NCBI GenBank assembly: GCA_017307735.1
Contig: JAFKGR010000004.1
Location: 274,360-338,359 of the forward strand
DNA length: 64,000 bases
From: Chitinophagaceae bacterium
Lineage (GTDB): Bacteria > Bacteroidota > Bacteroidia > Chitinophagales > Chitinophagaceae
Direction of reading: 5' to 3'
The notes under the pieces: generated by a model
The model's input: only the letters and a program-made list of their open reading frames with translations
Told to the model about the DNA's origin: nothing
Databases searched by the model: none
Program-made: the position numbers and the translations under genes
In this document: positions 828 through 24,100 of the stretch, one piece after another
Numbering within the stretch: the stretch's first letter is position 1
How the letters are laid out: each line of letters starts with the position of its first letter

Positions 828-1995
828 ATGATGAAACTACAATCTCTCACTTCATTTATCATACTTATAGCATTGAGCGCTACCGTATTCAGCGCTTGCA
901 AAAAAAATAATGATGTGGAAACGAATGTTCAGATTACAGGTATAACCCCTGACTCGGGTCGCTATTCAACCATTGTTACTATAACAGGAACCGGCTTTAG
1001 CACGAATGCCTCAGAAAACCTGGTAAAGTTTAATGGCAAGGACGCAGTTGTTCAATCTGCCACCCCATCTCAATTGACTGTAGTGGTACCCAAAGGTGCC
1101 GGAACAGGCCCGTTGAGTATTACCGTGGGTAGCAAAAGCGCTACCTATCCTGTTTTTAATTATATCCTGACTGTTACAGTTAGCACATTAGCAGAAAGTG
1201 CAACTCTTTTTGCGTATGGGCTAACTACCGATGCCCAAGGGAATATTTATAATTATGGACCATCAGGCAATATCACCAAAATAACACAGGAAGAAGAAGC
1301 CTCTTCCTTTGCTCAAGAGATGAGCGGCTTTGGAGGCTTTGGAATCACCGCTGATACACATCTGAATATCTATGCTTCAGCTTCTGACAGTTGTTATATA
1401 TTCAAAATAACACCGGAAGGAGTAGTTTCTATATTGGCAGGAGATGGGCATAATGGTTTTGCAGATGGCCACGCCGGTTCAGCAAGATTTAATTATCCAA
1501 TGGGAATTACTACCGACTCCAATGGGAACATTTATGTTGCCGATTTTGGCAATAATCGTATCCGAAAAATAACACCGGCAGGAACAGTTTCTACCTTGGC
1601 TGGAGGTGGAGCGCGAGGTTTTGCAGATGGTACTGGTAGTTCTGCACGTTTCAATTCTCCTTATGGAATAGCTGTTGATGGCCAAGGAAATATTTATGTT
1701 GCTGATCGTGACAATAATCGTATCCGGAAAATAACATCAGACGGAGTAGTTTCTTGTTGATGGCCAAGGAAATATTTATGTTGCTGATCGTGACAATAAT
1801 CGTATCCGGAAAATAACATCAGACGGAGTAGTTTCTACATTGGCTGGAGATGGAACGGACGGTTCTACAGATGGCTCTGGTAGTTCAGCAAAATTTTATA
1901 ACCCAACCGGAATAGCTCTTGATGGCCAAGGAAATATTTATGTTGCCGATTATGGCTATGGCAATAACCGAATCCGCAAAATAACTCAGAAATAA
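828..1995 (+). pseudogene. NHL-repeat lipoprotein with IPT/TIG domain, frameshifted by an 82-bp tandem duplication
   Basis: The start ATG opens a lipoprotein signal peptide with the lipobox-like TVFSAC. An IPT/TIG immunoglobulin-like domain follows (about residues 30-115), then NHL-type beta-propeller repeats with recurrent GNIYVAD and NNRIRKIT motifs. The open frame stops at 1760, only a few codons into a second identical copy of an 82-base segment (1673-1754 and 1755-1836). Because 82 is not a multiple of three, the second copy is out of frame. If one copy is removed, translation continues from 1837 through another complete NHL repeat and ends naturally at the TAA of 1993-1995. The intact protein would be a surface lipoprotein of about 360 residues. 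Ligand and role are unknown. The gene is broken in this sequence, but the lesion could revert exactly. Confidence 0.85.
1673..1836 (+). repeat. Perfect 82-bp tandem duplication (two copies)
   Basis: Bases 1673-1754 and 1755-1836 are identical over all 82 positions. The unit covers the end of one NHL blade and the linker after it. The flanking bases differ (c at 1672, t at 1754), which fixes the unit boundaries. Nearby NHL blades are similar to each other but not identical, so this is a recent duplication and not ordinary repeat divergence. Confidence 0.95.
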
Positions 1996-2348: not shown

Positions 2349-5300
2349 ATGAATTTACGATTACACAGTCATCATTATTTCCATTTCAAAAAAGAAAACA
2401 ACGGGAGCGATGGGGGATTTTGTAATACACAAAAATCTCCAGAACGAAACTCCTTTCACATCATGCAACTCGTGTTGCTGCTTATCTTTTTTTACACCGT
2501 CACCGGCAGCACTAACGCACAAACCATCCGCTATGTAAAAGCAGGCGCTACCGGAAGCGGAACTTCCTGGACAGATGATTCGGGCGATTTACAGGCAGCT
2601 ATCAATGCATCTGTAGCCGGCGATCAGGTATGGGTGGCAAGGGGTACCTATAAACCAAAATATCGTGCGGACAACATGAGTAGTGCCAATGCAAATGACA
2701 GAAACAATGCTTTTGTATTAAAAAAAGACGTAAAAATTTATGGCGGCTTTGCAGGGACCGAAACAACCCTGGCTCAGAGAGATTTATCAGTGTTAGCAAA
2801 TAGGGCTCTATTAAGTGGGGATATCGGTGCTACTGGCGACAACAGCGACAATGCGTATCATGTGGTTATCAGTGCAGGAGATGCGGGTACTTCAGAGTTA
2901 AATGGCTTTACAGTAAGTGGTGGAAATGCAGATGGAATTGGAGGTATTAGCATTAATTCACAAGTCCTGTCTAATTCCCTTGGTGGTGGAATTTACAATT
3001 CTCAATCATCTCCTATATTAAACAATCTAATAATTAAAGGGAATTCTACCAGTACCGGAGGCGGTGGAATTTTTAATTTAAGTTCATCTGCTGTTTTAAA
3101 CAACATAGTTATTAGTGGAAATACTGCCAGCTTCGGAGGCGGAATTGAAAATTTTCAATCAACTACCTTTTTAACCAATGTTACTATTAGTGGAAATACT
3201 GCCAGCTCCGGAGGCGGAATTCAAAATTATTCTTCATCTCCTACGATCCACAACACGATTATCTACGGTAATAGTAGCGGAATCAATAATTCTGATGTTA
3301 ATTCAATACCAATGATTGGCTATAGCCTGGTGCAGGGGTCAGCAGATGTTACCAATGGTAATATAGATGGCAGCGCCGATCCAAAATTTGTAAGCCCCGT
3401 TACTGCGGGATTAAATACCGGCGGTGATTATCATTTACAACCAGGCAGTCCGGTCATTAACGCGGGCAACAATACCTATTATAATGCTGGTCAAATGCCT
3501 GACTTGTCAGCGATTACTACTGACCTTGCCGGAAATCCGCGTATTTCAGGTGTCAACATTGATATGGGTGCATATGAATATCATCAGCCGGTAAAATGGT
3601 TTGTAAAACCAGGTTCTTTGGATGCAGGTATTTCCTGGAGCGAGGCAGGCGATTTTCAAACGGTTATTGATAAGGCCGACAATGGTGATAGTGTTTTTGT
3701 TGCGAAAGGAACCTACCAACCCGCCAGTGGTTACCAATTCATTATGAGACCGGGAGTAAAAATTTATGGCGGATTTGCCGGGACAGAGAGCAGTCTGAGC
3801 CAAAGGGATCTATCAGCAGGCAACGCCAGTATATTAAAGGGCAATGGCAGCAGAGTAATAAATGGTGGGATTGCAGTAAAAAGAGATGCAGTGTTGGACG
3901 GTTTCACTATTACAGGGGGAAATGCAGGTTTCTTTTATGGAGGAGGAATGTACAACCATGCCGTTTCACCTACTATCGCCAATTGTACTTTTGTCGGTAA
4001 TTCGGCAACCCGGGGAGGAGGAATGTACAATGAAAGCTCTGCCCCGAACATCATCAATTGTATTTTTACAGATAATACTGCAACCGGATTCGGAGGCGCG
4101 ATGTGTAACATCTCTACCCGTCCGTCTTTGATGATTACCAATTGTACTTTTTTCAATAATAACGGAGCGGGTTTCGGCGGAGGGATTTTCAACCTTTACT
4201 ATGCTCAGAATAGTATAATTACCAACTGCGTGTTTTGGGATAATACAGCACCGGCTGATCAGCCAGATTTTATTTACCGGCAGGGTGATGGTACTCCTGT
4301 CTTCAATTATAACTATACACAAAGCGATTTTACCAGTATCGGTACGGGTAATATAACCGGTAGCAGTGATCCGTTTATAAACAGCAGCAATCCAGCCGGT
4401 ACGGACGGTATTTTTGGTACTGCAGATGATGGGTTGAGGCTGATTGCAGGTAGTGCAACTGTAAACGCAGGCGATCCTCAGACCAATAGCACAAATTACA
4501 CCGTGCAGGCAGGCAATACAGATATTACCGGCGCTGCCCGCATACAAGATGGCATCATAGATATGGGCGCTTATGAAAGCGCGGTTCCCGTAGCAGGCAC
4601 CATCAGCGGTGCAGGAATTGTATGTCCCGGTTCAAACAGCACTACACTTACCCTGACCGGTTACGCCGGAAATATCCAGTGGCAGTCATCAACAGACAAT
4701 GTAACATTTAATAATATTGAGGGAGCAAATGCAGCCACTTATACCGCATCCAATCTCACTGCCACCACCTGGTATCAGGCTGTTGTTTCAAGTGGTACAG
4801 AAAGTGTGACATCTCCGGGTGTGGCTTTAACCTTAGATGTTCTTCCTGCCATTACGGTCACTAGCAGCAACCCGCATCTTTACTTTGGTGCGCCGGGCGA
4901 TCAGACCTCAACCATAACGGCAACCGCTACAGGTGGCGCCGCTCCTTACACCATTACATTCAGCATTAACCGTGCATTAATCTCTGATTACATAAACGAT
5001 GCAGGCGATGAAGTTTGGTCAGCGCCGGGTAGTACCACAACCAGCGCCAATCCGCCTTCCGTATTTACAGGGATAGCGGACGGGGGATCTGCTTCCATTA
5101 ATGTAGCACTGCTTGCCGATGCTGATATTACGGCAACAGTTACCGACGCAAATGGTTGCTCACTGGCCGCTACAGCAGTTCATATCGTTGCGGAAGATGC
5201 ACGTTGTTTTGCAGGCAAAAGCGGAAACGCAAAAGTATTGATGTGTCATTTGACAGGCAGCGCCAAAAATCCCTATGTGGAAATTTGCGTTGATGCTGAT

Positions 5301-5696
5301 GCGGTGCAGGAACATCTGGACGAGGGTGATATGTTAGGCAGTTGCAGCATGAGCAGCAGGGATATGGGTAATGGCATTTTCAATTCAACTGTAAATCCTG
5401 CTTCAGCTATTGCTCCGGAAACCAGCAACAAAGAAGAAAACCGCGGCAAACTATCCGTAAAAGTTATGCCAAACCCGTCCTCCAATTTCTTTACTTTAGG
5501 ATTAGAAAGTCAAAGTATGGAAAAGGTTCAACTAACCATTTCAGATATTACAGGAAGAATCGTTGAACGCAGAGCCAATGTACCGGCAAACAGCACTTTG
5601 CAATTGGGCAGTGGTTATCATTCCGGTATTTACATTGCTGAATTTGTTCAGGGGGGTGATAAGGTAACTATCCGGTTGATAAAAGCAGGAAAGTGA
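2349..5696 (+). CDS. Large secreted beta-helix protein with T9SS C-terminal sorting domain
   Basis: This 1115-residue secreted protein has an export signal whose hydrophobic core is near residues 40-55, ending at TNAQ after an unusually long polar N-terminus. Translation could therefore begin at the ATG of 2463 instead. Two homologous parallel beta-helix modules follow (about 60-410 and 415-745). Each opens with a VKxG...SW...GDxxxVAxGTY block, carries KIYGGFAGTE, runs through GGGI/GGGM-N repeats and closes with IDMGAYE. An Ig-like domain (about 750-830) and a Cys-containing segment with VLMCHLTGS and a final GSC come next. The last 80 residues, from MPNPSSNFF to the terminal lysine, are a type A type IX secretion domain. 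It probably acts as a cell-surface or extracellular adhesin or carbohydrate-binding protein. The substrate is unknown. PorX, a regulator of this secretion route, is encoded at 48.8-50.3 kb. Confidence 0.88.
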   Translation: MNLRLHSHHYFHFKKENNGSDGGFCNTQKSPERNSFHIMQLVLLLIFFYTVTGSTNAQTIRYVKAGATGSGTSWTDDSGDLQAAINASVAGDQVWVARGTYKPKYRADNMSSANANDRNNAFVLKKDVKIYGGFAGTETTLAQRDLSVLANRALLSGDIGATGDNSDNAYHVVISAGDAGTSELNGFTVSGGNADGIGGISINSQVLSNSLGGGIYNSQSSPILNNLIIKGNSTSTGGGGIFNLSSSAVLNNIVISGNTASFGGGIENFQSTTFLTNVTISGNTASSGGGIQNYSSSPTIHNTIIYGNSSGINNSDVNSIPMIGYSLVQGSADVTNGNIDGSADPKFVSPVTAGLNTGGDYHLQPGSPVINAGNNTYYNAGQMPDLSAITTDLAGNPRISGVNIDMGAYEYHQPVKWFVKPGSLDAGISWSEAGDFQTVIDKADNGDSVFVAKGTYQPASGYQFIMRPGVKIYGGFAGTESSLSQRDLSAGNASILKGNGSRVINGGIAVKRDAVLDGFTITGGNAGFFYGGGMYNHAVSPTIANCTFVGNSATRGGGMYNESSAPNIINCIFTDNTATGFGGAMCNISTRPSLMITNCTFFNNNGAGFGGGIFNLYYAQNSIITNCVFWDNTAPADQPDFIYRQGDGTPVFNYNYTQSDFTSIGTGNITGSSDPFINSSNPAGTDGIFGTADDGLRLIAGSATVNAGDPQTNSTNYTVQAGNTDITGAARIQDGIIDMGAYESAVPVAGTISGAGIVCPGSNSTTLTLTGYAGNIQWQSSTDNVTFNNIEGANAATYTASNLTATTWYQAVVSSGTESVTSPGVALTLDVLPAITVTSSNPHLYFGAPGDQTSTITATATGGAAPYTITFSINRALISDYINDAGDEVWSAPGSTTTSANPPSVFTGIADGGSASINVALLADADITATVTDANGCSLAATAVHIVAEDARCFAGKSGNAKVLMCHLTGSAKNPYVEICVDADAVQEHLDEGDMLGSCSMSSRDMGNGIFNSTVNPASAIAPETSNKEENRGKLSVKVMPNPSSNFFTLGLESQSMEKVQLTISDITGRIVERRANVPANSTLQLGSGYHSGIYIAEFVQGGDKVTIRLIKAGK

Positions 5697-6931: not shown

Positions 6932-7879
6932 TTATTCTGATGACGGAGAATTATGCTTTGTCCACGATTCTTCCTTTGGCTGGTAGTTGATAATTTTAAA
7001 CAAGTGCAATACATAGGGAAACAATGCGTCCATACTTTCGCTTGCTCCACGTGTTGAACCGGGCATAGCGATAATCAGCGTATTCCCTTTTAAACCTGCT
7101 ATGCTTCTGGACAGCATGGAGTAGGGCGTTTGCTCCTGGCCGTAATTTCTGGCAGCTTCGCTGATTCCCGGAATTTCTCTGTCAAGCAACGGCCTGATTG
7201 CTTCTGGTGTTACATCTCTTGGCGAAAGACCCGTTCCTCCGGTTATCAGAATCATGTCCAAATTAGCCGCGCATAAGTCCTGAACTTTTTCCTGAATCAC
7301 TTTTATTTCATCAGGGATGATGCTGTAATCTTTCACATAGATATTATATTTCTCAAGTTTACTGATGATCGCTTTGCCGGCGCTGTCCTGTTTTTTTCCT
7401 GCGGAAATACTATCAGAGCATACCAGAACACCGGCAATAAAGTCTTTGAAATTTTGGTCGGCGTATTGCGATTTGCCTCCTTTCTTCTTCAGCAGTTTGA
7501 TATTTTTTATCTCTATTCCTTTGTCAATGGGTTTTAGCATATCATAAATGGTGAGTGCTACGACCGAAGCACCGTGCATGGCTTCCACTTCCACACCTGT
7601 GCGGTAAATGGTATGAACTTCCACTTCAATAATAATATCCAGTCCATCAATTCTGTGTGTCACGGCGGCCGATTCTATCGGCAATGGATGGCAGTCGGGA
7701 ATCATATCGCTGGTGCGTTTGATGCCGAACAGGCCAGCTACACGACTGGCCTCCAGCACATCGCCCTTGGGTACGGTTTTGTTGAGGATGGCCTCAATTG
7801 TTTTTTCTGAACTTACACTGACAGTCGCCTGCGCAATGGCAGAACGATGCGTTTTGATTTTATTGGTGATGTCAATCAT
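6932..7879 (-). CDS. moaCB: Bifunctional MoaC-MogA/MoaB fusion, molybdopterin biosynthesis
   Basis: Two Moco enzymes are fused in one 315-residue cytoplasmic chain. Residues 1-145 are cyclic pyranopterin monophosphate synthase (MoaC), with the DCHPLP segment (His ligand), [10 protein letters not shown] (two catalytic Glu) and IYDMLK (Asp, Lys). Residues about 150-300 are a MogA/MoaB-type molybdopterin adenylyltransferase, with [12 protein letters not shown] and the [15 protein letters not shown] signature. MoaC works with MoaA on GTP, and the MogA part adenylates molybdopterin before molybdate insertion by MoeA. The MoaC part begins close to its conserved core. The gene is the last in the nitrate/Moco block, four bases after moaE. 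Similar fusions are known in Bacteroidota. Confidence 0.93.
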
Positions 7880-7882
7880 ATT

Positions 7883-8326
7883 TCAGGTATTTACTTTCCA
7901 TTGTGTGGTTGCGTTTTCAAATATTTCCTTTCCCCAAACAGGCACTTCTTTTTTTATTCTTTCAACAATCGCTTCGCAGGCATCAATGGCATCTTTCCGG
8001 TGCGCAGCGGATGTGAAAACCATCAGGCTGATTTCTCCTGCTTTCACGATGCCCAGGCTGTGATAAATGTGCAGGCAGATGAGTGGAAATTTTTTAAAAC
8101 CATCTTCACGTATTTCGTAAAGTTTTTCTTCTGCCATCTCCTGATAGGCTGTGTATTCTATTGCAGCAACTAATTGGTCTTCTATTTTGTCGTTGCGTAC
8201 CTGGCCGAGGAAAATACTGTGTGCACCGATGTTTGTTTTCCGGTTGTGATTTTCAATGGAGATTGCAATAAAAGAAGGACTAATCGGCCCATCAACAAAT
8301 ACGGTATGTTTTTTTGTTTTTTCCAT
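7883..8326 (-). CDS. moaE: Molybdopterin synthase large (catalytic) subunit MoaE
   Basis: This 147-residue protein is of normal MoaE length. It has the HRKDAIDACEAIVE segment and the C-terminal catalytic lysine region KKEVPVWGKE. With thiocarboxylated MoaD it converts cyclic pyranopterin monophosphate to molybdopterin by inserting two sulfurs. It lies five bases downstream of moeB and three upstream of moaC-mogA, so translation is likely coupled. MoaD, its small partner, is encoded two genes upstream on the same strand. Confidence 0.93.
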   Translation of the reverse strand: MEKTKKHTVFVDGPISPSFIAISIENHNRKTNIGAHSIFLGQVRNDKIEDQLVAAIEYTAYQEMAEEKLYEIREDGFKKFPLICLHIYHSLGIVKAGEISLMVFTSAAHRKDAIDACEAIVERIKKEVPVWGKEIFENATTQWKVNT

Positions 8327-8331
8327 AGTGG

Positions 8332-9477
8332 TCAGGTTTTTGCAGAAGAAACTGAGAAAGTCAATAATGATTTTTTATACGCAATGATACCTCCCTCCAA
8401 ATTATAAGCCTTACAATGTGGATACCTTTCTAAAAGTAAGTTCAATGCCGTTAAACTGCGCTGTCCTGATTTGCAGAACAGCACAACTCTTTCTTTTAAA
8501 TTGAGTTTTGTTATTCCGTCTTCAAACTCACTCAAAGGCAATTGAATGTACGGAAACTCATTCACGAGAGGTAATTCTCCGCACTCACGAACGTCTATCA
8601 CTGTTATATCATTCTTCTTTCTGAGTATTTCAAATTCTTCCGGCGAAATTTCCAAATGTTGACAGGTGTTTCCGCAGAACCACTCATAATTGAATTGTTT
8701 GAATTCTTCAATTGTTTTGGGGACAAAATGATTTTTCTGTTTTGATGGAGTAATTTCAAATTCGTAAAACAAATTCTCCAGGACATTGCAGGATAGAATT
8801 TTATTGCTTAATGGCGTTCCAATGCCGGTAATGATTTTGATAGCTTCGGTAGCCTGCATGGTACCGATGATTCCCGGTAATACTCCCAAAACGCCGGCTT
8901 CATTGCATGATGGTACAGTTTCCGGTCTGGGCGGCTCAGGAAATAAATCCCGGTAATTGGCTGAATAATTGTCATCGCTCGCCCGGAGATTGAAAACGCC
9001 TGCCTGGCCTTCATAGCGCAATACAGAACCATACACCAATGGTTTGTGAAGCAACACACAAGCATCGTTTACCAGATACCGGGTAGCGAAATTATCCGTT
9101 CCGTCAATCACTATGTCATATCCGCTGATAATCTCAACAGCATTTGCAGATTCAATTTTTGTTTGATGAACAATGAATTCAATATCGGGATTGAACTTCA
9201 TTAATTTTTCTGCCGCTGTTTGTGCTTTATATTTTCCGATATCATCAACATTAAAAAGAGTTTGTCTTTGCAGATTGGTGAGCTCAACTACGTCAAAGTC
9301 AAGAATGCCGATGGTGCCTACTCCTGCTGCGGAAAGATATTGAAGTGCCGGGCAGCCCAATCCGCCGGCGCCTATCATCAGCACACGCGAGTGGTGCAAC
9401 TTTTCCTGCCCGGTTATTCCAAAATCATTCAGTAAAAGCTGCCGCTCATAACGTTGATATGATTGATTTGGTTTCAT
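8332..9477 (-). CDS. moeB: MoaD-adenylating enzyme MoeB with C-terminal rhodanese domain
   Basis: This 381-residue protein has a ThiF/MoeB E1-like domain (about 1-245). It shows the nucleotide-binding GAGGLGCPALQYL, DGTDNFATRYLVNDAC and PSCNEAGVLGVLPG blocks. A rhodanese domain follows (about 275-370) with the active-site cysteine in LFCKSGQRS. It activates the C-terminal Gly-Gly of MoaD as an acyl-adenylate, and the rhodanese cysteine can deliver the sulfur. The paired CxxC zinc motifs of classical MoeB are not evident. Only isolated cysteines occur in the linker (SCNVLEN and WFCGNTC). It sits five bases after moaD and five before moaE. Confidence 0.92.
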   Translation of the reverse strand: MKPNQSYQRYERQLLLNDFGITGQEKLHHSRVLMIGAGGLGCPALQYLSAAGVGTIGILDFDVVELTNLQRQTLFNVDDIGKYKAQTAAEKLMKFNPDIEFIVHQTKIESANAVEIISGYDIVIDGTDNFATRYLVNDACVLLHKPLVYGSVLRYEGQAGVFNLRASDDNYSANYRDLFPEPPRPETVPSCNEAGVLGVLPGIIGTMQATEAIKIITGIGTPLSNKILSCNVLENLFYEFEITPSKQKNHFVPKTIEEFKQFNYEWFCGNTCQHLEISPEEFEILRKKNDITVIDVRECGELPLVNEFPYIQLPLSEFEDGITKLNLKERVVLFCKSGQRSLTALNLLLERYPHCKAYNLEGGIIAYKKSLLTFSVSSAKT

Positions 9478-9482
9478 CTGTT

Positions 9483-9722
9483 TTATCCTCCCGAAAAAGG
9501 TGGAAGCAGCGCCACAGTATCATCGTGATGCAACTCAACATCTTCCCGGATAATTTTTTTATTAACTGCGATTAAAAAATTTATAGACTTCAAATCTGGA
9601 AAATCCTTCAACAGTAAACGATTGAATTCTCCTGTGGTTTTTATATCAGAGATACTCCAACTGTTCTTTCCGGTAACCTCGGCCATCTGGCCAAAAGCAA
9701 GAATATTAATTTTCATTTTCAA
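9483..9722 (-). CDS. moaD: Molybdopterin synthase sulfur carrier subunit MoaD
   Basis: This 79-residue ubiquitin-like protein ends in the obligatory Gly-Gly (PPFSGG), which becomes the thiocarboxylate after activation by MoeB. The N-terminus is MKMKINILAFGQMAEVTG, and the third residue is a second possible start. The beginning overlaps the end of mobA by 17 bases, a sign of translational coupling. The stop codon is five bases before moeB, its activating enzyme. Confidence 0.92.
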   Translation of the reverse strand: MKMKINILAFGQMAEVTGKNSWSISDIKTTGEFNRLLLKDFPDLKSINFLIAVNKKIIREDVELHHDDTVALLPPFSGG

Positions 9723-10308
9723 CAGATTTTAATGCGTTTGAAAAATCAGTTTTGTTATTGAGGTTGGTAAATAACAAATCGTCAAAAATCGGATTGTCCT
9801 CAACCGGAATCTTTTTAAGGTCAAACATTTCAACCATGCTCTGTAATCTCGTCTCTCCGCTTTCAATCAAAGCCTTCCATTTCATCAGACAGTTTTTTGA
9901 ATATACCGCGAACAAAGGCTGAACCTTACCAAAAAATACGGGTATGGTAATTTCTGCCTGTGAAGAATGTTGAATGATATAATCAACCGCAGCAGAATTG
10001 ATAAAGGGCATATCGCAAGCTGTAACAAAGATTTTTTCTGAAGGGCTGTGTTGTAATGCAGTGTATATTCCACCGGCCGGACCAATTCCCGGAATTAAAT
10101 CGCTCAAAACGGGCAAACCAAATTTTTTATATTCCGGATTATTGGCAATAATAATTACTTCGTGTGTGGGTACTTGTAATTGTTTGATAATACCCAGCAC
10201 AAGTGGTTCTCCATTGAATAAGAGCAATCCTTTATCCACTCCCATGCGGGAACTTTTACCTCCTGCAAGAATATAGCCGGTTATATTTTTATTTGATTGA
10301 TGATTCAT
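9706..10308 (-). CDS. mobA: Molybdenum cofactor guanylyltransferase MobA
   Basis: This 200-residue nucleotidyltransferase has the signature GYILAGGKSSRMGVDKGLL at residues 10-29, a GPAGGIYTAL segment and the ACDMPF metal-site motif near residue 97. It transfers GMP from GTP to Mo-molybdopterin, giving the guanine dinucleotide cofactor that NarG-type enzymes of the DMSO reductase family need. Its presence in the same transcription unit as narG therefore makes functional sense. It overlaps moaD by 17 bases. Confidence 0.93.
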   Translation of the reverse strand: MNHQSNKNITGYILAGGKSSRMGVDKGLLLFNGEPLVLGIIKQLQVPTHEVIIIANNPEYKKFGLPVLSDLIPGIGPAGGIYTALQHSPSEKIFVTACDMPFINSAAVDYIIQHSSQAEITIPVFFGKVQPLFAVYSKNCLMKWKALIESGETRLQSMVEMFDLKKIPVEDNPIFDDLLFTNLNNKTDFSNALKSVENEN

Positions 10309-10320
10309 TTTTCATAGCTA

Positions 10321-11052
10321 TCAGGTGAATAATAATTTAAAGGAAGCGATAAGCAATACAAAAGCTAAAACACGCCGCAATAAAACTCCTTTTACCTTCA
10401 TTGCTCCGATATAAGAACCTGTAAGACCTCCCATGAGCGCGACGATAACCATCCATGCCATAGCAGGATTGAAATGCAGGCCCTGTGTAAATATTCCCGC
10501 AAGTCCGGATACAGAATTGACCAGAATAAATAATGCTGACACGGCGGCGGTCTGTTTCATGTTTGCCCAATGCAATAGTAAGATGACCGGACTCAGGATG
10601 ATGCCTCCGCCAATACCGATCATCCCGGAAAATAATCCGATGACAAAACCAATTGCGATTGAACCGGCCAACCCCTGCTTTTGTGTTTGTTTTTCTTCGT
10701 CAAATTTCAATCCGGCAAGTTTGATGATCGGGAAAATGAGCAAAGCTCCCAGCATGACTTTATATACTGACGGATTTATAGTGATCAGTCCGCCGATAAA
10801 CGCTGCAGGAATAGATGCAATAGCAAATGGCCAGAATAAGGACCAGCGAAAGTGGCCACCTCTGTAATACTGAACAAAAGCAATCAGCGAAACGAAAATG
10901 TTTAAAATAAGTGCGGTGGAGCGCATGGAATCAGGTGAAAAGGAGAAGAGTGCCATGAGTGCCAGATAGCCACTCGCGCCGCCATGCCCCACAGATGCAT
11001 ACAACATGGCCACGAAAAACAATAACCAATAAAAAATTAGTTCTGCATGCAT
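10321..11052 (-). CDS. TauE/SafE family membrane transporter
   Basis: This 243-residue integral membrane protein has about eight hydrophobic helices and the family hallmarks: GHGGASGYLALMAL near the N-terminus and the repeated FSGMIGIGGGIILSPVI near residue 145. TauE/SafE proteins are proposed exporters or permeases for sulfite, sulfoacetate and other organosulfur or oxyanion compounds. Here the gene sits between moeA and mobA, so a role with molybdate, sulfite or another oxyanion connected with Moco enzymes is a guess from context only. No ModABC molybdate transporter is present in the window. Gaps are 34 bases to moeA and 12 to mobA. Confidence 0.88.
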   Translation of the reverse strand: MHAELIFYWLLFFVAMLYASVGHGGASGYLALMALFSFSPDSMRSTALILNIFVSLIAFVQYYRGGHFRWSLFWPFAIASIPAAFIGGLITINPSVYKVMLGALLIFPIIKLAGLKFDEEKQTQKQGLAGSIAIGFVIGLFSGMIGIGGGIILSPVILLLHWANMKQTAAVSALFILVNSVSGLAGIFTQGLHFNPAMAWMVIVALMGGLTGSYIGAMKVKGVLLRRVLAFVLLIASFKLLFT

Positions 11053-11086
11053 CTTCTGAAAAATTTATACATCATTTTATTTATGG

Positions 11087-12262
11087 CTAAATAATCATCC
11101 GCACTTTCACCTTCTCTCCTTTTTGAAAATATTCTTTTCCTGCTTCCAATTCAATCAGACAATCCGCCAGGGCAAAGGAATTCATCATATAGCTTTCCTG
11201 ATGATTTAAAATTGCAACTTCATTTCCTTTGCACTTCCCTTTCAGAAAATAATTGAAATCAGGTTTCTTGGTATAGCTGGCTGCAAGCGTTAAAATATAA
11301 TCTCTGTTAATTTTTCTTTTTATAAAGGCGCTGATGGCTTCAGTTACGTATTCATAGAAACAAGTGAGTGCGGATGCGGGATTTCCCGGAAGCCCGAATA
11401 CCAGTGCATTCTGACGTTTTCCGAAGTACAGTGGTTTGCCGGGTTTTTGTTTGATTTTGTGAAATAGTTTTTGAACCCCGCATTTTTCCAATGCCGGTAT
11501 CACAAAATCGTAATCGCCTACCGAAACACCTGCGGTAAGCAATATGATGTCTGAATCCAGTTGCCTTGAAATAGCTTCTGTTAGTTTTTCTTCGTCGTCA
11601 GCAACCATTTCAACAGATTTGGGAGTGATGTGTATTTGATTGAGCGCTGCCATTAATCCGTAAGAATTGGATTCATAAATTTCACCGCCTGTTCTTTTCT
11701 GACCCGGTTTGATCAATTCATTGCCTGTAACAATGATGCTTACCCTGGGATAGTCATAAACCTTAACCTTGTCTATTCCCAAACCCGCCACAAATGAAAC
11801 AGATGACGGTGAGAGATAATGATTTTCCGGCAGCACTGTTTCATCCTTTTTTGTTTGTGATGCCCGCGGACGAACATTACATCCCTTAATAAGTTGTTCG
11901 TCATGGATGCGAATGGATTCTCCCTGAGTGGTAATTTTTTCCTGCATCACTACAGTGTCAGCCCCTTTGGGCAACACAGCTCCTGTGAATATGCGGACCG
12001 CCTCAAGAGGCTTCACTTCAAAAGTTACATCATCACCGGCCTTGCCTTCGCCGACAATTGTAAAATCTGAATATTTATCCCATTTGGCAAAAGAGAAAGC
12101 ATAACCATCCATAGCCGATTGATTAAAAGGAGGTGTGTCAATGGGTGCATAAACCGGAACGGCCAAAACATAACCTGCTGCCTCATTCAAAGGTATTTCA
12201 ACCACCCTCGTTGTAGTCGCATTTTCCCGGATAATTTGTTTTGCTTCATTTACGCTTATCAT
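11087..12262 (-). CDS. moeA: Molybdopterin molybdenumtransferase MoeA
   Basis: This 391-residue protein is of normal MoeA length. It has the conserved DTPPFNQSAMDGYAF segment near residue 45, the AVRIFTGAVLPKGADTVVMQE block near 90-110, and the MPT-binding core TAGVSVGDYDFV and KPGKPLYFGK with GLPGNPASAL. It inserts molybdate into adenylated molybdopterin made by the MogA domain. The gene is 12 bases downstream of moaA. Upstream and downstream neighbours are all Moco genes apart from the TauE-like transporter. Confidence 0.95.
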   Translation of the reverse strand: MISVNEAKQIIRENATTTRVVEIPLNEAAGYVLAVPVYAPIDTPPFNQSAMDGYAFSFAKWDKYSDFTIVGEGKAGDDVTFEVKPLEAVRIFTGAVLPKGADTVVMQEKITTQGESIRIHDEQLIKGCNVRPRASQTKKDETVLPENHYLSPSSVSFVAGLGIDKVKVYDYPRVSIIVTGNELIKPGQKRTGGEIYESNSYGLMAALNQIHITPKSVEMVADDEEKLTEAISRQLDSDIILLTAGVSVGDYDFVIPALEKCGVQKLFHKIKQKPGKPLYFGKRQNALVFGLPGNPASALTCFYEYVTEAISAFIKRKINRDYILTLAASYTKKPDFNYFLKGKCKGNEVAILNHQESYMMNSFALADCLIELEAGKEYFQKGEKVKVRMII

Positions 12263-12274
12263 GGTTGCTTTGTT

Positions 12275-13258
12275 TTATCCTCCGATGTGAATCATACTTC
12301 GGTTTTTCAATTGGGCGATATCTATGTTTTTATAATTGGAATCAAATTGCCCGCCCTGCGCTTTCTTTTTGTCCCAAACGCATTGTTTGATTAAAGGAAC
12401 GATATCGTCTCCCCTGCGAAGTGCTCCGAGGATGTCTGCTTCACCTTTAGAAAAAAGACAGTTTTTCATCTTGCCGTCTGTGGTTAACCTGAGCCTGTTG
12501 CAGCTTCCACAAAACGGATGGCTCATTGTACTGATGATTCCGAACGTTCCCTTCGCATCATTAACCGCAAATTTCTTAGCTGTTCCATGGTCGTCATCCG
12601 GCAGGCGGTTGAAATCAAAATGTGAAGCAATTAAATTCAGTATTTCTTCCTGAGAAAATACCTTCTCTTTACTCCACTGATTTCCGGCAAAGGGCATGAA
12701 TTCAATAAAACGAATATGAACGGGCTGATGCCTGGTCCATTCCACAAAGCCGGGAATCTCATCATCATTTACTCCTTTCATCAACACTGTATTCACCTTC
12801 ACATCGAAATTATTTTTCAGCAATAATTGAACGTTGCCAAATACTCTTTCAAATTCATTGCGACCTGATATCAGTGCGTTTTTGTTTTTCTTCAGCGAGT
12901 CAAGACTTACGTTGACAGACTTCATTCCTGCCTGTTGAAATACATCAATGAATTCATGTACGAAAACGCCGTTTGTGGTTATCGCCAATTCAACCGGGTA
13001 TTTTGAAAGGAGGTGAATAATTTCTCCGGCTCCTTTTCTCACCAGAGGTTCTCCTCCGGTCAGCCTGATTTTTTTGATTCCCAATTGAACGAAAACTCCG
13101 GCTATCAAGTCAATTTCATCCACCGTCATTTTGTTGGAATGGGCAAAATGTCCTTTTGGTAAATCAACAGGATTACAGTAGGTACATCGCAGATTACACT
13201 TATCAGTAAGGGATATACGTAAATAATCATGGATTCTATTGAAGGAGTCTTTCAGCAT
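12275..13258 (-). CDS. moaA: GTP 3',8-cyclase MoaA (radical SAM)
   Basis: This 327-residue radical SAM enzyme makes the first Moco intermediate from GTP. The SAM-binding cluster is CNLRCTYC near residues 21-28, and the second cluster comes from CGSCNRLRLTTDGKMKNC near residues 247-264. The chain ends in the conserved Gly-Gly (MIHIGG), which is needed for activity in studied homologues. The arginine-rich RLTGGEPLVRK block follows the first cluster. One base separates it from the hemerythrin-like gene upstream, which links that gene to the same transcript. Confidence 0.96.
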   Translation of the reverse strand: MLKDSFNRIHDYLRISLTDKCNLRCTYCNPVDLPKGHFAHSNKMTVDEIDLIAGVFVQLGIKKIRLTGGEPLVRKGAGEIIHLLSKYPVELAITTNGVFVHEFIDVFQQAGMKSVNVSLDSLKKNKNALISGRNEFERVFGNVQLLLKNNFDVKVNTVLMKGVNDDEIPGFVEWTRHQPVHIRFIEFMPFAGNQWSKEKVFSQEEILNLIASHFDFNRLPDDDHGTAKKFAVNDAKGTFGIISTMSHPFCGSCNRLRLTTDGKMKNCLFSKGEADILGALRRGDDIVPLIKQCVWDKKKAQGGQFDSNYKNIDIAQLKNRSMIHIGG

Positions 13259-13259
13259 T

Positions 13260-13979
13260 TTATTCTGTTTTTTCAGTTACTTGTTTTTCCGGTAATTGAA
13301 TAGAAAAATACTTTTTCATTTTGATGGTGATGTCATCATAATCTTCCGGTTTCAGATATTTATGTGCCAACGGAAAGGCGACGTTGTCCTCTCTGAAAAC
13401 ATGAAGCCGCAGCATCTCTACCAATGATAATCCTTGTTCCACAGCGGTATCTAATAACAGCGCATTGGAAACAATATCAGTAATGCGTGAGGTAATACCC
13501 ATCAGGCTAAAGGTCAGGGTACCCAGTTCCATCATTTTAATGTGGTCATTTTCCAACATGTCGACGGCGGTTTCCTTTACAAGTCCTATACTGTGCTCCC
13601 CGTTTTCCAGCATCCGGTCGTGGAGGATGGGAAATAAAACCCGTTCTTCCTTCAGATTATGCATCACAATTTTATCATCCAGGTAGGCAAAAAAATCACC
13701 GAGCTTTTTGTTTCTTTCTTTGTTAATTCCTTCTCTCTTTATTTCCAAAAGAGTAGTTTCCAGTTCATTTATTTTTTCCTGAGTCACTTTATGTTCGTTC
13801 ATGAAGAGTTGTAAGATCGGATGCAGTTCATCAAACGAAACCGGCTCCACTCCCTGCGGCTGATACGATTCAGGCGGCGCCATAGGAGAATAAACAGGGT
13901 TCGTGTCCGGTTCTTTTTCTACAAATCGTTTGATGTAATCCTGATTTTTGTTTTCGGAATTGGCGAAAATGTTATTCAT
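13260..13979 (-). CDS. Hemerythrin-like (HHE) domain protein
   Basis: This 239-residue soluble protein is predicted to be a four-helix diiron protein. Candidate ligand motifs are HPILQLFMNEHK near residue 53, HNLKEERVLFPILH near 112, ENDHIKMM near 144 and HVFREDNVAFPLAHKYL near 193. This His/Glu spacing resembles YtfE/ScdA-type and stand-alone hemerythrin domains that bind oxygen or NO, or repair iron centres damaged by NO. The first 45 residues are Pro-rich and lack a signal peptide, so it is cytoplasmic. Being one base upstream of moaA and in the nar block, it may protect or sense during nitrate and nitrite respiration. That role is inferred from context. Confidence 0.78.
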   Translation of the reverse strand: MNNIFANSENKNQDYIKRFVEKEPDTNPVYSPMAPPESYQPQGVEPVSFDELHPILQLFMNEHKVTQEKINELETTLLEIKREGINKERNKKLGDFFAYLDDKIVMHNLKEERVLFPILHDRMLENGEHSIGLVKETAVDMLENDHIKMMELGTLTFSLMGITSRITDIVSNALLLDTAVEQGLSLVEMLRLHVFREDNVAFPLAHKYLKPEDYDDITIKMKKYFSIQLPEKQVTEKTE

Positions 13980-14041
13980 AAATTTTTGTTTGGTGGTGGA
14001 AAAAGTGTTTGGAAGCTAATTTAAAAGTTTAGTTATCGGTG

Positions 14042-14086
14042 AAATATGACGGCCATCATAAACCGTGGATGAGTCGTATCATATTT
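14042..14086 (-). repeat. Imperfect inverted repeat between the TDT channel and hemerythrin genes
   Basis: AAATATGA (14042-14049) is mirrored by TCATATTT (14079-14086), with an inner CATC/GATG pairing around a ten-base loop. The right arm runs into the stop codon of the TDT gene. It could be an mRNA processing or stability hairpin inside the long transcript. No T run follows, so it is not a good terminator. Confidence 0.35.
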
Positions 14087-15189
14087 TAAGGGCTTTGTTC
14101 ATTAATAAGAGAAAGACTTTCCTTTTGCCGGGCAAAATGAAAAAACTGTTTTCGGATGAGACCCAGAAAGGTGAATGTCCATGCGATAATAGCGAGGTAA
14201 ATAAAATATCGCGGCACCGGCAATAAAAAATCCAGATCCATCGCCTGTGCCATTCGCCATGTGCAAACGGTGTACATCCCCAGGGGAAAGACAGCGCCCC
14301 AGTAGAGCGGGTCATAGGTGAGCGGAAATCTTTTATAGACATGCCGCCAAACAGCCAGTATGATCAGCATGGGGATCCACCAGGTACCAGTTGCCCAGTA
14401 AAAGATGGTGAAGCCTTTGATAAAGGGCAGGAGTGAATGTAGGAAAGGGGCATGTTCTTCATTAATGATCAACAACGAACCCGCCAGGGTGGAGATAGCC
14501 ATGGCGCCCATATTAATCCAGTAAGGCGGAGCCAGGTCGTTGGGTGAAAACCTGAAAAAAGTATAGCGATAAAATATCAGCGATATCATCCAGATGTACA
14601 GCATGCCACCCCAGAGCCACATAGAAAAAGCAAAAAAGTTGGCTTCTAATTTATAAGGCTGATTCCAGTGAGATGCAATCAGGGTGGTCAGTACAGCGAT
14701 AGATTGAATAGATACCACCGCCAGCAGCCAACCACCTGTAATGCCTTCGCTCAGCGGCGGTTTTTTGTCTTTGATGGTGAGCATGGGAAAGATGATGGAA
14801 GTCAGTATCACCCAAAGAATGACGCCCAGTGCCAGCAATATTTCCGCCGGACGATAACTACTGCTTATGATGATAAATTGTGTCCCGACAATACAAGTGC
14901 CGGCCACTACGGTGAAGAATCCCATTCCGGCCTGATGGTCTTTCAGGTCATCCAAAAAAGAACGGGTGTAAATGAAAAGCCGGATGAGATAAAGTACCCA
15001 TAAGACGACAAATGCTATCAGATTGATGATGAATAACGACAGCGCAAAAATGTGCATGCCCGCCAATTCTCCGGCGATGGAAACAATGCCGGTGGCCATC
15101 ACCAAACCGAAGTAGGCGGGAGAGAGGGTCCTGACAGATTCCTGAGACCTCTTTAAAAATGGACTGCTTTTTTGAATTGTGCTTTCCAT
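14086..15189 (-). CDS. TDT family (TehA/SLAC1-like) anion channel or transporter
   Basis: This 367-residue protein has ten predicted helices and the TDT-family opening [19 protein letters not shown] at residues 23-41. The family includes bacterial TehA, yeast Mae1 and the plant SLAC1 anion channels, some of which conduct nitrate or chloride. It lies 56 bases downstream of narK, and the next gene is the hemerythrin-like one. In a nitrate respiration block it is a reasonable candidate for nitrate or nitrite passage, or for a C4-dicarboxylate, but the sequence alone does not settle the substrate. Confidence 0.82.
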
Positions 15190-15245
15190 AATTAAGAATT
15201 TCCTGCTCTGAATGTTGATTTTTTATTTTTCATTATCCTCTTGTT

Positions 15246-16769
15246 TTATTTTTTAGAAATGCCTTCCGATATTCCCGGTGTTTGACGGGTAATAGCAAAG
15301 CGCATGAGCACCAGGCTGACCAGCGAAACAAACGCCAGCAGCGCCCAGCACGAAGTCCACACTCCCGACGCGGCCAACAGATATCCAAATAAAATCGGAT
15401 CAACAAAACCGCCCAAACCACCCAACACTCCGACAATTCCGCCTACGGTTCCTATGTCTTTGGGATAATAAACAGAAATGTGTTTGAAAACAGCAGCGCT
15501 GCCCATACCCAGCATAATGCCGATAATAAACACCAGCGAAGTAAAAATCCATTTGTTTGCCTGGAAATAAACCTCGGTTATTCCCCTTGCTATTAATTGA
15601 CCTTTGGTAATTTCATCTCCTTCTTTGATTATCGGCTCCTGCCAGGTGATGGTAGTGGGAAGTAATAAAAAGCCTTCCTTATCGTGATGAATACCGAAAC
15701 GTATGTTGGCATCTTTCCCGGAAAGGGTTTGTCCCTGCAACCTGAAAGTCGTTTTTTCTGATTCAGATTTCTCTTTCCTGATGACAATGACACTGTCCGA
15801 AACAAGTTCTGCCACTCCTTCCGTGGGTGACATGATTCCCTGCCCGGGAGTCCTGATTTCAATGCGCGGTGGCATCAATAATATCAGACACACGATACAC
15901 GTTCCGAAAACCCAATACAAAACAATACGCGCTCCTACCTTATCAGAAATAATTCCTCCTACAATGCGGGTGATTCCTGAGGGCAGGTTGAATGCTGTCG
16001 TCATAAATCCTGCCATCACAATGGACATTGAATAAACATTGACATAATAAGGAATCAGCCATTGCGTGAGTGCAACAAAACTTCCGAATACTACAAAATA
16101 ATACAACCCGAAACGCCATACCCTTGCCTCCTTTAACGGAGACAACCTTCTGGCGATAGATTTTATTTCCGACGGTTTTTTGTTGCCGGCAAATACAAAG
16201 AAGACAATTCCCATGATGACTAAAACGGCTGCATATATCTGCGGCAGTCCTCTCCATCCGTCGGGATTATTTCTCTGGTGAGTCAGTACATTCAAAAGTT
16301 TTGGGGCAAGCATGGTTGTTATGGCTGCACCGATATTGCCGGCGCCAAAAATTCCCAATGCTGTTCCCTGTTTTTTTTCAGGAAACCAAAGAGAGGTGTA
16401 AGCTACGCCCGCTGCAAAAGAACTGCCCGCAATTCCAAACCCAAAACTCAACAAAAGGAACATGGTGTAACTATCCGCCCCGGATAAAAAATACATGGGA
16501 ATGGCGGTGAGAAATAAAATGATGGTCATCACCCATTTGCCGCCAAACTTATCGGTCAACATGCCAACAGGCAGGCGAAAAACAGAACCCACCAAAACAG
16601 GCACACCCATCAGCCAGCCGACCTCAACGGAGCTCCATCTGAATAAATTATTGTTTACCAGGTAAGTGACCAACACACCATTGATCATCCAGGCCGCAAA
16701 ACACAAGGTGAAGGCAAGCGTACTGAGAACCAACGCCCTGACAGATGCTCCATTTGCCCGTTCCATCAT
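15246..16769 (-). CDS. narK: NarK-type nitrate/nitrite MFS transporter with extra periplasmic domain
   Basis: This 507-residue major facilitator has twelve predicted helices. Arginines at positions 65 (VFRLPVG) and 268 (GITRIVGG) correspond to the two substrate-binding arginines of E. coli NarK. The glycine-rich AGNIGAAI and GGIVGVLGGLGGF motifs are typical of nitrate/nitrite porters. It imports nitrate and can exchange it for nitrite. The odd feature is about 105 soluble residues (about 301-406) between helices 9 and 10, predicted on the periplasmic side. They contain a GIMSPTEGVAEL...EPIIKEGDEITKGQLIARG pattern like a biotinyl/lipoyl-type hammerhead without the modified lysine motif. The gene follows the unknown membrane protein after narI. 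Methionine 1 or 2 may be the start. Confidence 0.9.
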   Translation of the reverse strand: MMERANGASVRALVLSTLAFTLCFAAWMINGVLVTYLVNNNLFRWSSVEVGWLMGVPVLVGSVFRLPVGMLTDKFGGKWVMTIILFLTAIPMYFLSGADSYTMFLLLSFGFGIAGSSFAAGVAYTSLWFPEKKQGTALGIFGAGNIGAAITTMLAPKLLNVLTHQRNNPDGWRGLPQIYAAVLVIMGIVFFVFAGNKKPSEIKSIARRLSPLKEARVWRFGLYYFVVFGSFVALTQWLIPYYVNVYSMSIVMAGFMTTAFNLPSGITRIVGGIISDKVGARIVLYWVFGTCIVCLILLMPPRIEIRTPGQGIMSPTEGVAELVSDSVIVIRKEKSESEKTTFRLQGQTLSGKDANIRFGIHHDKEGFLLLPTTITWQEPIIKEGDEITKGQLIARGITEVYFQANKWIFTSLVFIIGIMLGMGSAAVFKHISVYYPKDIGTVGGIVGVLGGLGGFVDPILFGYLLAASGVWTSCWALLAFVSLVSLVLMRFAITRQTPGISEGISKK

Positions 16770-16860
16770 GTTGCCGAAATTTTATAATTAAAAATCAATT
16801 GCGTTTCTATAAAAAATTTTTTCTTTATTCTCTGTTTGTATCAACACTTCAGTCCGATAA

Positions 16861-17310
16861 CTAAGAATTTCTTTTTGTGAAAATCATTCTTCCGCTATCC
16901 CTAAATTTTTCTGAGCACCGCACTTTATATTTCCCTCCCGGCACCTGGATGCTGTCTTTTGGAACCGGGTAAAAAGTATTACACCGCTTGTATTTTTTCC
17001 CTCCCAGTTCATATTCAAATTCAATTCCTGTTCCCCTGGCAAAAACACTGCAATAGCCAATCGTGGTTCCCTCCACATAAACCGGATGTTCCAGCAATGC
17101 GCCTTCAATCCGGAATTCTCTGATGACAAAAAAGAGGGCAACGGAAAATGACAGAAAAAGAAAAATGTTGATGATTCTTCTTGTTGATGAAACAGCTTTT
17201 ATAGATTTAAACAGGTTAAAAATAATCGTGATGACAAGAATCAGCATCAGGATGAATTTGACCACCTGGCTGACCAACAATTCGTCATCTGTTACGATAT
17301 TGAGGTACAT
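16861..17310 (-). CDS. Unknown two-helix membrane protein in the nar cluster
   Basis: This 149-residue protein is not recognised. Two hydrophobic helices (about 12-35 and 46-62) are joined by a short basic turn, KSIKAVSSTRR. They are followed by a soluble C-terminal domain of about 85 residues, rich in beta-prone segments, with cysteines in GYCSVF, KRCNTFY and VRCSEK. With both termini on one side, the C-terminal domain is probably cytoplasmic. The start codon is two bases after the narI stop, so the two are translationally coupled. That suggests a part in assembly or function of the NarGHI complex or of nitrate transport. No function is claimed. Confidence 0.65.
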   Translation of the reverse strand: MYLNIVTDDELLVSQVVKFILMLILVITIIFNLFKSIKAVSSTRRIINIFLFLSFSVALFFVIREFRIEGALLEHPVYVEGTTIGYCSVFARGTGIEFEYELGGKKYKRCNTFYPVPKDSIQVPGGKYKVRCSEKFRDSGRMIFTKRNS

Positions 17311-17312
17311 GG

Positions 17313-18041
17313 CTACGTGTTTTCAGGTCGCTGTAGCGACCACGGTGTTTTCTTATTGCGAACTTTCTTCTTATCCCAATTCCAGATGACTTGCTGATAA
17401 GGTCGCCACAGATAATTCAGAGGCAGAACCAGCAAATGAACCAGTCTTGAAAAAGGGAGGATACCGATGATAAGATATGCTCCTGCAATATGTGCTTTCA
17501 CCGGCCAGGGCAGCAGCGCAACTGCCGTGGTGTCGGGGTGAAGTGTAAAAATGGAATACAGATAAGGAGTCAACAAAGTAGCGAACCACGAAGAACCCCA
17601 TCTGAAACTATAGGCAATCCATAATCCTGCAAATGTTTGAAGAAATAATAAAATGTAAATAACCAAATCCATTGCGTTGGTTACCGGACGAAGTCGCGGG
17701 GTGGTATATCTTCTGATGATCAGATTGATCAGTCCGACCAGCATGCTGATACCAAAAATAAAACCGGTTATTTCCAGTACCATCAGGCGAACTGGTTGGC
17801 TGTTCCATGCCAAAATACCTCTTGGAATCAGGAGAGCCGTGAGGTGACCACAAAAAACGACCAGTATCCCCCAATGAAAAGGAACAGAACCATAGAATAA
17901 TCTGCGCCCTTCCAGAAATTCGGATGACAGGGATGAAAACTGAAATTTCCTGTGGGTGTATTTGTAAATAGACCCGATCAGAAATACCGTTAAGGCGACA
18001 TACGGCAGCGCAATCAGTATAAAATTATCTAAGTAGGCCAT
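17313..18041 (-). CDS. narI: Respiratory nitrate reductase gamma subunit, cytochrome b NarI
   Basis: This 242-residue membrane protein has five predicted helices. All four heme b histidines expected from E. coli NarI are present: H56 and H66 in the FHWG...CGHLTALL segment, and H184 and H202 in KAHIAGAYL...RLVHLL. It oxidises quinol at the periplasmic side and passes electrons through two hemes b to NarH. The charged C-terminus should face the cytoplasm and contact NarGH. It follows narJ by 34 bases. Confidence 0.95.
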   Translation of the reverse strand: MAYLDNFILIALPYVALTVFLIGSIYKYTHRKFQFSSLSSEFLEGRRLFYGSVPFHWGILVVFCGHLTALLIPRGILAWNSQPVRLMVLEITGFIFGISMLVGLINLIIRRYTTPRLRPVTNAMDLVIYILLFLQTFAGLWIAYSFRWGSSWFATLLTPYLYSIFTLHPDTTAVALLPWPVKAHIAGAYLIIGILPFSRLVHLLVLPLNYLWRPYQQVIWNWDKKKVRNKKTPWSLQRPENT

Positions 18042-18075
18042 GGCGGTTGTATTTACTTGTTATCATTCGGTTTGT

Positions 18076-18837
18076 TTATTTTTCTGTCAGCATTTCGGTT
18101 TCAATATTCTGGCTGAAATCTTTTTCCGGTGCTGAAGCCGGAGCGCTTGCCGGATTATTCGGGTCAGCATATTCTTGTCTTCGGTTCATGCTCACTTCTT
18201 CCTGAGGTATATATCCGAAATCATTTTTAAGGACAATAAAAAATGCATGAAGGCAGTTTTGGTAAACGGTCCTGTAATTCTGAGAAAATTCCAGAATCAC
18301 TTTTTGGTGCTTTTTATATACCTCATCTTTTTTCTGAATCTTTTCAGGAGAAAACTCTTTCATCATTTTGACTACAGCAGGTTGAATCAGCAGCGTGGCA
18401 ATTTCAAATTGCATCGCATTGTCTTTCATTTTGGGCAACAGGCGAAGCAGATTGGGCAGATGGTCGGCCAGTTCGGTTTCACAATCATTGCCGGCATTCT
18501 TATGTTCCTCGTTTAGATGAACAAGCAACTTGCCTCTTTTGTAATCTTCTCCGAAGAGAATAAATCCGATGTCCAGCGTGGTGATGGCCTGCAGGTCAAA
18601 AGAGCGCAGAAACAATTCCTGCATTTCCATAAAAGAAGAATCTTCGGTGTATTCGGCAAATCGCTGCAATGCATCTGCCGCTTCCGGTAATTCTTTTTGC
18701 AGATACTGATAGACTTCTTTTATTTTCTTCTTGTAATTTTCATTCTGCGGATACATGAACAGGTTTGCCAATAATCCATAATCCTTCAGAGAAGAAGTTG
18801 TTCCGGTGTTTGTTTCATTATGATTGTTTGTTTCCAT
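18076..18837 (-). CDS. narJ: Nitrate reductase assembly chaperone NarJ
   Basis: This 253-residue helical protein is of the NarJ/NarW (TorD-like) chaperone type. It has the conserved core TLDIGFILFGEDYKRGKLLVHL (about 94-115) and PNLLRLLP. It binds apo-NarG, guards cofactor insertion and lets NarGH dock onto NarI. It is not part of the final enzyme. The C-terminal 40 residues are Pro/Ala/Ser-rich and poorly conserved. Its position between narH and narI is the classical narGHJI order. The gaps are 53 bases from narH and 34 to narI. Confidence 0.93.
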   Translation of the reverse strand: METNNHNETNTGTTSSLKDYGLLANLFMYPQNENYKKKIKEVYQYLQKELPEAADALQRFAEYTEDSSFMEMQELFLRSFDLQAITTLDIGFILFGEDYKRGKLLVHLNEEHKNAGNDCETELADHLPNLLRLLPKMKDNAMQFEIATLLIQPAVVKMMKEFSPEKIQKKDEVYKKHQKVILEFSQNYRTVYQNCLHAFFIVLKNDFGYIPQEEVSMNRRQEYADPNNPASAPASAPEKDFSQNIETEMLTEK

Positions 18838-18890
18838 CTTTTTGCGTTTTTAATCATTTCAAACATTTTATATTACCAGTCTATTTTCCA

Positions 18891-20441: not shown

Positions 20442-20482
20442 GATTGATATTTTTGATGTTTTGAATAAAGTTTATTTTGTGT

Positions 20483-23400: not shown

Positions 23401-24100
23401 TCATCTTGGCATTGTACCAATCGGCGCTTTCACACACATCGGTTTGTTCGCCCCAGAGTTCGGGAAACGCCGGCGGCAAGTCGCAATACCAGTCGTAAAA
23501 GCTCAGGTTAACACCCCCGAAGAGCTGAAGGAAACGGTGCCCGGCAGCGTGGCTCAGCATGGACATGGCCGGTATGGGAGAAAATCCTATGACCCTGTCG
23601 GGGCCATACTTCCTGGCAGTATAGATATTGGAAGCGGCGATGATTTCTAATACTTCATCCCATGAGGAACGGCGAAAGCCTCCTTTTCCCCGTGATTGCT
23701 GGTAGCGTGTGCGTTTTTCTTTGTTATTCTGCAGATTTTCCCAGGCGGCTACCGGGTCACCGTTTGTTTTATTTTTTTCTTCTCTGAAAGCGTCTAAGAG
23801 TGTGCCCCTGATCAGCGGATATTTTATGCGCAACGGACTATAGAGGTACCACGAATAAGAAATTCCCCGCTGGCATCCGCGCGGTTCGTAGGGCGGCAGA
23901 TTATTGTCTATTAAGGGGTAATCCAATTGTTGCGTTTCAAAAACAACAATTCCTTCTTTCACATGAATTTGCCATGAACACCCGCCGGTGCAGTTCACGC
24001 CGTGGGTGCTTCGTACAACGCGGTCGTGCTGAAACCGGTTGCGGTAAAACTCTTCCCATTGGCGGGTTTTAGGGGAAATGATGTCTGTAATCCAACTCAT
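20483..24100 (-). CDS. narG: Respiratory nitrate reductase alpha subunit, molybdenum NarG
   Basis: This 1205-residue catalytic subunit of membrane-bound nitrate reductase carries Mo-bis-MGD and one [4Fe-4S] cluster. The FS0 ligands are H33, C37, C41 and C76 ([20 protein letters not shown]), with the same spacing as E. coli H49/C53/C57/C92. D208 in DWYCDLPP corresponds to the Mo ligand D222. The N-terminus is short and lacks a twin-arginine signal, so the active site is cytoplasmic and nitrate must be imported, in line with narK downstream. Length and full colinearity indicate an intact enzyme. It follows the diheme cytochrome gene by 56 bases. Confidence 0.97.

Follow-up and report, generated by a model that had tools for sequence, protein, structure and literature searches.

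A perfect 82-base half-blade tandem interrupts a TIG/NHL-propeller gene of a Chitinophagaceae-like bacterium, probably as a recent loss-of-function lesion

Does an exact, frame-shifting tandem duplication inside a putative surface-protein gene mark a genetic switch, or is it simply the lesion that inactivated the gene? The window, i.e., the whole stretch of 64,000 nucleotides that was analysed, raises this question near its start. A sequence-only reading had described two identical 82-bp copies at 1673..1836 that close a reading frame at 1760, with the downstream frame still open, and had proposed ON/OFF switching, with a recent mutation or an assembly error as alternatives. The description of the locus holds in every detail. 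The two adjoining copies, 1673-1754 and 1755-1836, are identical at 82/82 positions; the ORF that begins at 828 on the forward strand runs for 310 codons to a TGA at 1758-1760; and 1756-1992 provides 79 open codons in the +1 frame, ending in a TAA at 1993-1995. As the repeat unit of 82 is 1 mod 3, the gain or loss of one copy shifts the frame. The parts of the gene, all on the forward strand, are as follows.

828-1760 (+): upstream piece of the interrupted TIG/NHL-propeller gene, 310 aa and the stop TGA (ORF list; Pfam TIG and NHL)
897-899 (+): codon of the predicted lipidated cysteine C24, in the context ...TVFSAC-KKNN (sequence)
933-1148 (+): IPT/TIG domain, residues 36-107 (Pfam)
1425-1583 (+): NHL blade 3, residues 200-252 (blade profile)
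1587-1748 (+): NHL blade 4, residues 254-307 (blade profile)
1593-1672 (+): first half of blade 4, 80 nt (repeat anatomy; comparison with P0002, the nearest relative)
1673-1754 (+): 82-nt copy 1, the second half of blade 4, VDGQGNIYVADRDNNRIRKITSDGVVS (repeat anatomy; comparison with P0002)
1755-1836 (+): 82-nt copy 2, the same as copy 1 (repeat anatomy; alignment with P0002)
1756-1995 (+): downstream piece in the +1 frame, 79 aa, comprising a half blade, the last blade and the natural stop (Pfam; alignment with P0002)
1837-1916 (+): first half of the last blade, 80 nt, whose best match is the first half of blade 6 in P0002 at 24/27 residues (comparison with P0002)

An exact 82-base tandem far exceeds what would arise by chance, and it also stands apart within its genome. 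We scanned the window and 20 sampled stretches, 408,012 bases in all, for perfect tandems with units of 15-599 nt: apart from the 82-nt repeat, no unit exceeds 42 nt, and all other units (21, 39 or 42 nt) are divisible by 3, as 82 is not. Perfect minisatellites of the same genome, with 21/42-nt and 39-nt units, lie at L122:568-1107 and L126:1089-4006 (contigs C16 and C19), and C19, at 4.7 kb, holds two 39-nt arrays. Imperfect 75-78-nt repeats occur in the window itself at 2982-3217, within the gene (2349-5696, forward strand) for an 1115-aa protein with a T9SS sorting domain and choice-of-anchor Q domains.

The sequence-only reading missed that 82 nt is one half of a propeller blade. The blades in this array have a period of 162 nt, split into halves of 82 and 80 nt. 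Duplicating 82 nt and deleting the 80 nt that separate two identical halves therefore yield one and the same sequence. The upstream and downstream pieces each match NHL separately in Pfam, 1756-1992 at 5.3e-15, and the latter also aligns to the end of P0002. A blade profile built from three six-bladed relatives (P0008, P0012 and P0041) recovers four blades in the window frame, rather than six in one frame behind the TIG domain. Blades 3-4 score 88-98 bits and blades 1-2 only 11-14 bits; by this profile the array appears only partly repetitive, with its first two blades degenerate.

What the intact gene looked like can be approached through its relatives. Among the best 120 of 6060 protein matches, the nearest other protein is P0002, which has 411 aa and is 85% identical. 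It aligns to both pieces, with an extra half-blade of 27 residues placed exactly between the two 82-nt copies, and its identity to the downstream piece (84%) is about equal to that to the upstream piece (85%). Six blades were counted in all 52 other TIG-labelled proteins of these 120, a set chosen by hand from the Pfam labels of the listed matches. The remaining 67 comprise 49 with six blades and 18 with seven to nine, so that none of the 119 other listed matches has fewer than six; the list is, however, ordered by a score biased towards more blades and confined to lengths of 0.55-1.75 times that of the query, which may tip the count towards six. One hundred loci from other searches, which partly overlap (about 91 are distinct by coordinates), give a more varied picture. 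With own-genome loci, frames whose best blade is below 40 bits and duplicate sequences set aside, 46 of the 84 complete NHL frames are six-bladed and 12 are five-bladed; 7 of the 13 five-bladed frames (12 complete and one open at an edge) have a sixth, weaker stretch.

An AlphaFold2 model of P0002 (pLDDT 92.2, pTM 0.84) was obtained from an alignment of 40 of the 53 TIG-labelled proteins, the own protein included and the 13 longer ones left out; folded without an alignment, P0002 reaches a pLDDT of 45. Counting from the strand list of the model, P0002 is predicted to consist of a TIG domain followed by six four-stranded blades. Among solved folds, 3hrp from Bacteroides thetaiotaomicron matches best; a teneurin-like protein and auxiliary nutrient-binding proteins come next. 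In the same 40 aligned sequences the column of C24, which corresponds to C23 of P0002, is an invariant Cys, and from such features the product of the 828 gene reads as a putative lipoprotein. The window gene shares with the six-bladed TIG and NHL proteins (P0002, P0008, P0012 and P0041) a signal-peptide-like start with a Cys, a TIG domain and NHL blades, and differs from them in lacking the half-blade between the copies and in being out of frame. When P0002 and P0008 are compared with each other, the N-termini and TIG domains are near-identical and the propellers differ, a pattern that suggests, at the sequence level, that blade arrays have been swapped or re-amplified behind a constant N-terminus. 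With both pieces counted, the one-copy form of the window gene would have five blades and is hence unlikely to be native.

The reading that we favour, and consider probable, is that the perfect half-blade tandem is a recent, unprogrammed loss-of-function rearrangement in the array of a six-bladed parent, and the sequence-only reading's alternative of a recent mutation is thus the best fit. The parent would have had six blades, of which blades 4 and 5 were remodelled in such a way that the gene was left out of frame. Two histories could have led there: an 82-nt duplication of half-blade 4 combined with the loss of one in-frame blade, or a stage at which blades 4 and 5 had become identical, after which blade 5 lost its 80-nt first half. 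On either, the product would end after blade 4, and a 310-aa protein without blades 5-6 would not close a propeller. The lesion looks recent because the downstream piece is about as close to P0002 as the upstream one and contains no further stop. Copy 2 agrees with half-blade 4 of P0002 at 25/27 residues and with half-blade 5 at 23/27, and being nearer to the former it fits a direct duplication. The second history needs adjacent blades identical over 82 nt, for which the 100 loci offer no example at lags of 150-174 (longest run 55 nt); an 86-nt run in one of them (L057) has a lag of 255 and lies away from its matched gene. DNA coding for P0002 was found neither in viral contigs nor in 20 genomes of the genus, and a search of genome contigs, which may omit records very near the window, kept 79 loci with best-segment identities of at most 60%, too low for any of them to be the record of P0002 itself; the two histories could thus not be told apart at the DNA level. 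Against a six-bladed parent one may set the ranking of the list, the six-bladed source of the blade profile and the five-bladed frames seen elsewhere.

Could the tandem instead be a reversible switch, in which slippage or recombination adds or removes an 82-nt copy and so turns the lipoprotein on and off? The geometry is right: the copies are exact and adjoining, the unit is 1 mod 3, and the frame behind is open. Identical, adjoining copies make the loss of one by slippage or recombination physically possible; it would probably occur at a low frequency and would yield the five-bladed product. Moreover, such a mechanism exists elsewhere, as reversible sequence duplication has been described in pneumococcal capsule genes (Waite et al. 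2001, 2003, as cited in a passage of PMC4243769). Both systems have a duplication within a reading frame, but reversal is reported there, whereas the window gene showed no reversal and no second state. Among the best 120 of 6060 protein matches, where the own protein is followed by P0002, no allele of the species with one copy or an intact frame turned up. The species is thinly sampled (the cluster of the own protein has 1 member on 1 contig, and the 99%-identical cluster of a neighbouring gene has 5 members on 2 contigs, the longest of 1022 bases), and with the species so sparse in the database the absence of other alleles is weak evidence. Against switching also speaks that the one-copy product would be five-bladed. 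The junction has 0 bases of microhomology as prefix and 0 as suffix, so the identity of ends expected of microhomology-mediated tandem duplication is absent at this unit, and nothing there would make the same ends prone to repeated duplication; the literature on that process among the matches listed concerns fungi and mammalian cells.

Recurrence in relatives points the same way. A scan of the 100 related loci for exact repeats of at least 70 nt at lags of 30-999 found three runs, in 2 loci, all at lags of 255 and 306, which are multiples of 3, and none that changes the frame. A second NHL array read in two frames in genome G009 (L098) was rejected as a parallel, there being an unreadable codon (N) at the break. 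There is also a counter-precedent, for in the lrp gene of Xenorhabdus tandem duplications of 26-116 bp account for 3 of 25 distinct spontaneous mutations, and in the passages concerned (PMC6786866) the authors conclude that these mutations are not phase variation and report never having observed a complete reversion that restored lrp. Xenorhabdus lrp resembles the window gene in its in-gene tandem duplication and differs in that its mutants are those of a regulator (PMC6786866, same passages). No study pairing the NHL repeat with phase variation appears among the literature matches listed. The portion of PMC13410964 at hand deals with homopolymer slippage and IS elements rather than tandem duplication, and no usable deletion rate was found in the excerpts of PMC3519483. 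Nothing beyond the repeat geometry positively supports a switch. Of the sequence-only reading's proposal, therefore, the geometry and the existence of such a mechanism stand, but no sign of switching was found and the one-copy form is five-bladed; we regard an ON/OFF switch as unlikely.

Within P0002, half-blades 4 and 5 agree with each other at 25/27 residues, so copying at this place may have hit the sister lineage, too. A more adventurous proposal, which we consider quite improbable, is that blades 4 and 5 are a recombination hot spot of live shuffling, at which changes of 80, 82 and 162 nt would toggle the gene between off, five-bladed and six-bladed states of a surface propeller, giving phase and shape variation at once.

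The tandem might also be no property of the genome at all. An assembler could have left an overlap between joined contigs uncollapsed or dropped a half-blade between identical repeats, and such an artefact gains some appeal from the position of the repeat inside a blade array, from ends that coincide with half-blade boundaries, and from the expectation of a six-bladed gene. The assembly itself argues otherwise. Of 66 unmasked contig ends, 44 fall into 22 pairs with exactly 149 terminal bases in common (apart from these, shared lengths of at least 20 occur twice, at 30 and 39 bases); hence, the assembler probably resolved its graph at about 149-mers. Repeated k-mers are absent from 1501-2000 at k = 83, 99, 127 and 149, some being present at k = 82 and the smaller sizes tested, and all 148 of the 149-mers that span the junction are unique in the window, although a multi-k assembler may carry an error made at small k upward. 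The 408,012 bases examined contain no N. As a k of 83 or more resolves the repeat and the contig ends share 149 bases, a false join over an 82-base overlap is unlikely. We consider the sequence-only reading's alternative of an assembly error, in either of these forms, rather unlikely. These observations suggest, if indirectly, that the two-copy form was the dominant one in the sequenced sample.

A further possibility is that the gene is not dead, the 310-aa protein with its TIG domain and four blades being functional, possibly together with a partner or with a separately made downstream half. Its signal-peptide-like start, TIG domain and first four blades are indeed intact. However, the downstream frame has no ORF of at least 60 aa starting from ATG, GTG or TTG; the TGATG overlap at 1758-1762 would, by our reading of the sequence, restart translation in another frame; and none of the other listed matches has so few blades. 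We therefore deem a functional truncated product highly improbable.

The recent, unprogrammed lesion that we prefer is also an event of a known kind. There are published beta-propellers in which a deletion or frameshift has disrupted the gene and left the other blades in another frame further downstream (PMC9218822), and for a Kelch example from Verrucomicrobia a large deletion in the fifth blade is given there as most likely. Blades past the stop in another frame, the mark of such disrupted propellers, are present in the window gene at 1756-1992. As far as the pertinent sections of that paper go, the window gene resembles its highly repetitive propellers in having a blade array stopped by an indel with out-of-frame blades just downstream, and differs from them in two respects: its lesion can be recognised as an exact half-blade tandem, and its array appears repetitive only in part.

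The names on some matches to neighbouring genes (Ferruginibacter, Chitinophagaceae and others) point to a Chitinophagaceae-like host. Nineteen other genomes of the genus, of which 10 have a completeness of 90% or more, yielded no ortholog of the gene: DNA matches amount to patches of 48-77 nt in three genomes, and protein matches, at a cut-off of 1e-40, are NHL-only and 45-59% identical. The gene hence looks accessory, and its loss would be unremarkable. The upstream neighbour is a cytochrome gene with a single match in a congener (G014) at 1e-30, and the 2.6-kb piece of G014 that carries this match has no NHL gene. Further along the window, 6932-24100 on the reverse strand is one run of molybdenum-cofactor genes (MoaC with a molybdopterin-binding domain, MoaE, ThiF, MobA-like and MoeA), an MFS transporter and the alpha and beta subunits of nitrate reductase, the alpha subunit being 96% identical to a protein on another contig of 165 kb. 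Elsewhere in the family, a genome of 4.2 Mb (G024) stands out among the 59 genomes searched with 70 matches to the NHL protein, against 20 in the runner-up, which amounts to an expansion of NHL propellers.

Overall, the tandem is most likely a real feature and a recent loss-of-function allele, of a kind already known. If it is such an ordinary lesion, it offers a clean snapshot of the death of a repeat-built propeller, caught as an exact half-blade duplication or deletion before further decay. Should both states be present in reads, duplication-based phase variation would be extended to a Chitinophagaceae-like propeller lipoprotein and tied to the evolution of blade number. In either case, the lesson for repeat proteins is that a frame-restoring duplication should be compared with the usual repeat number of the family before it is named a switch.
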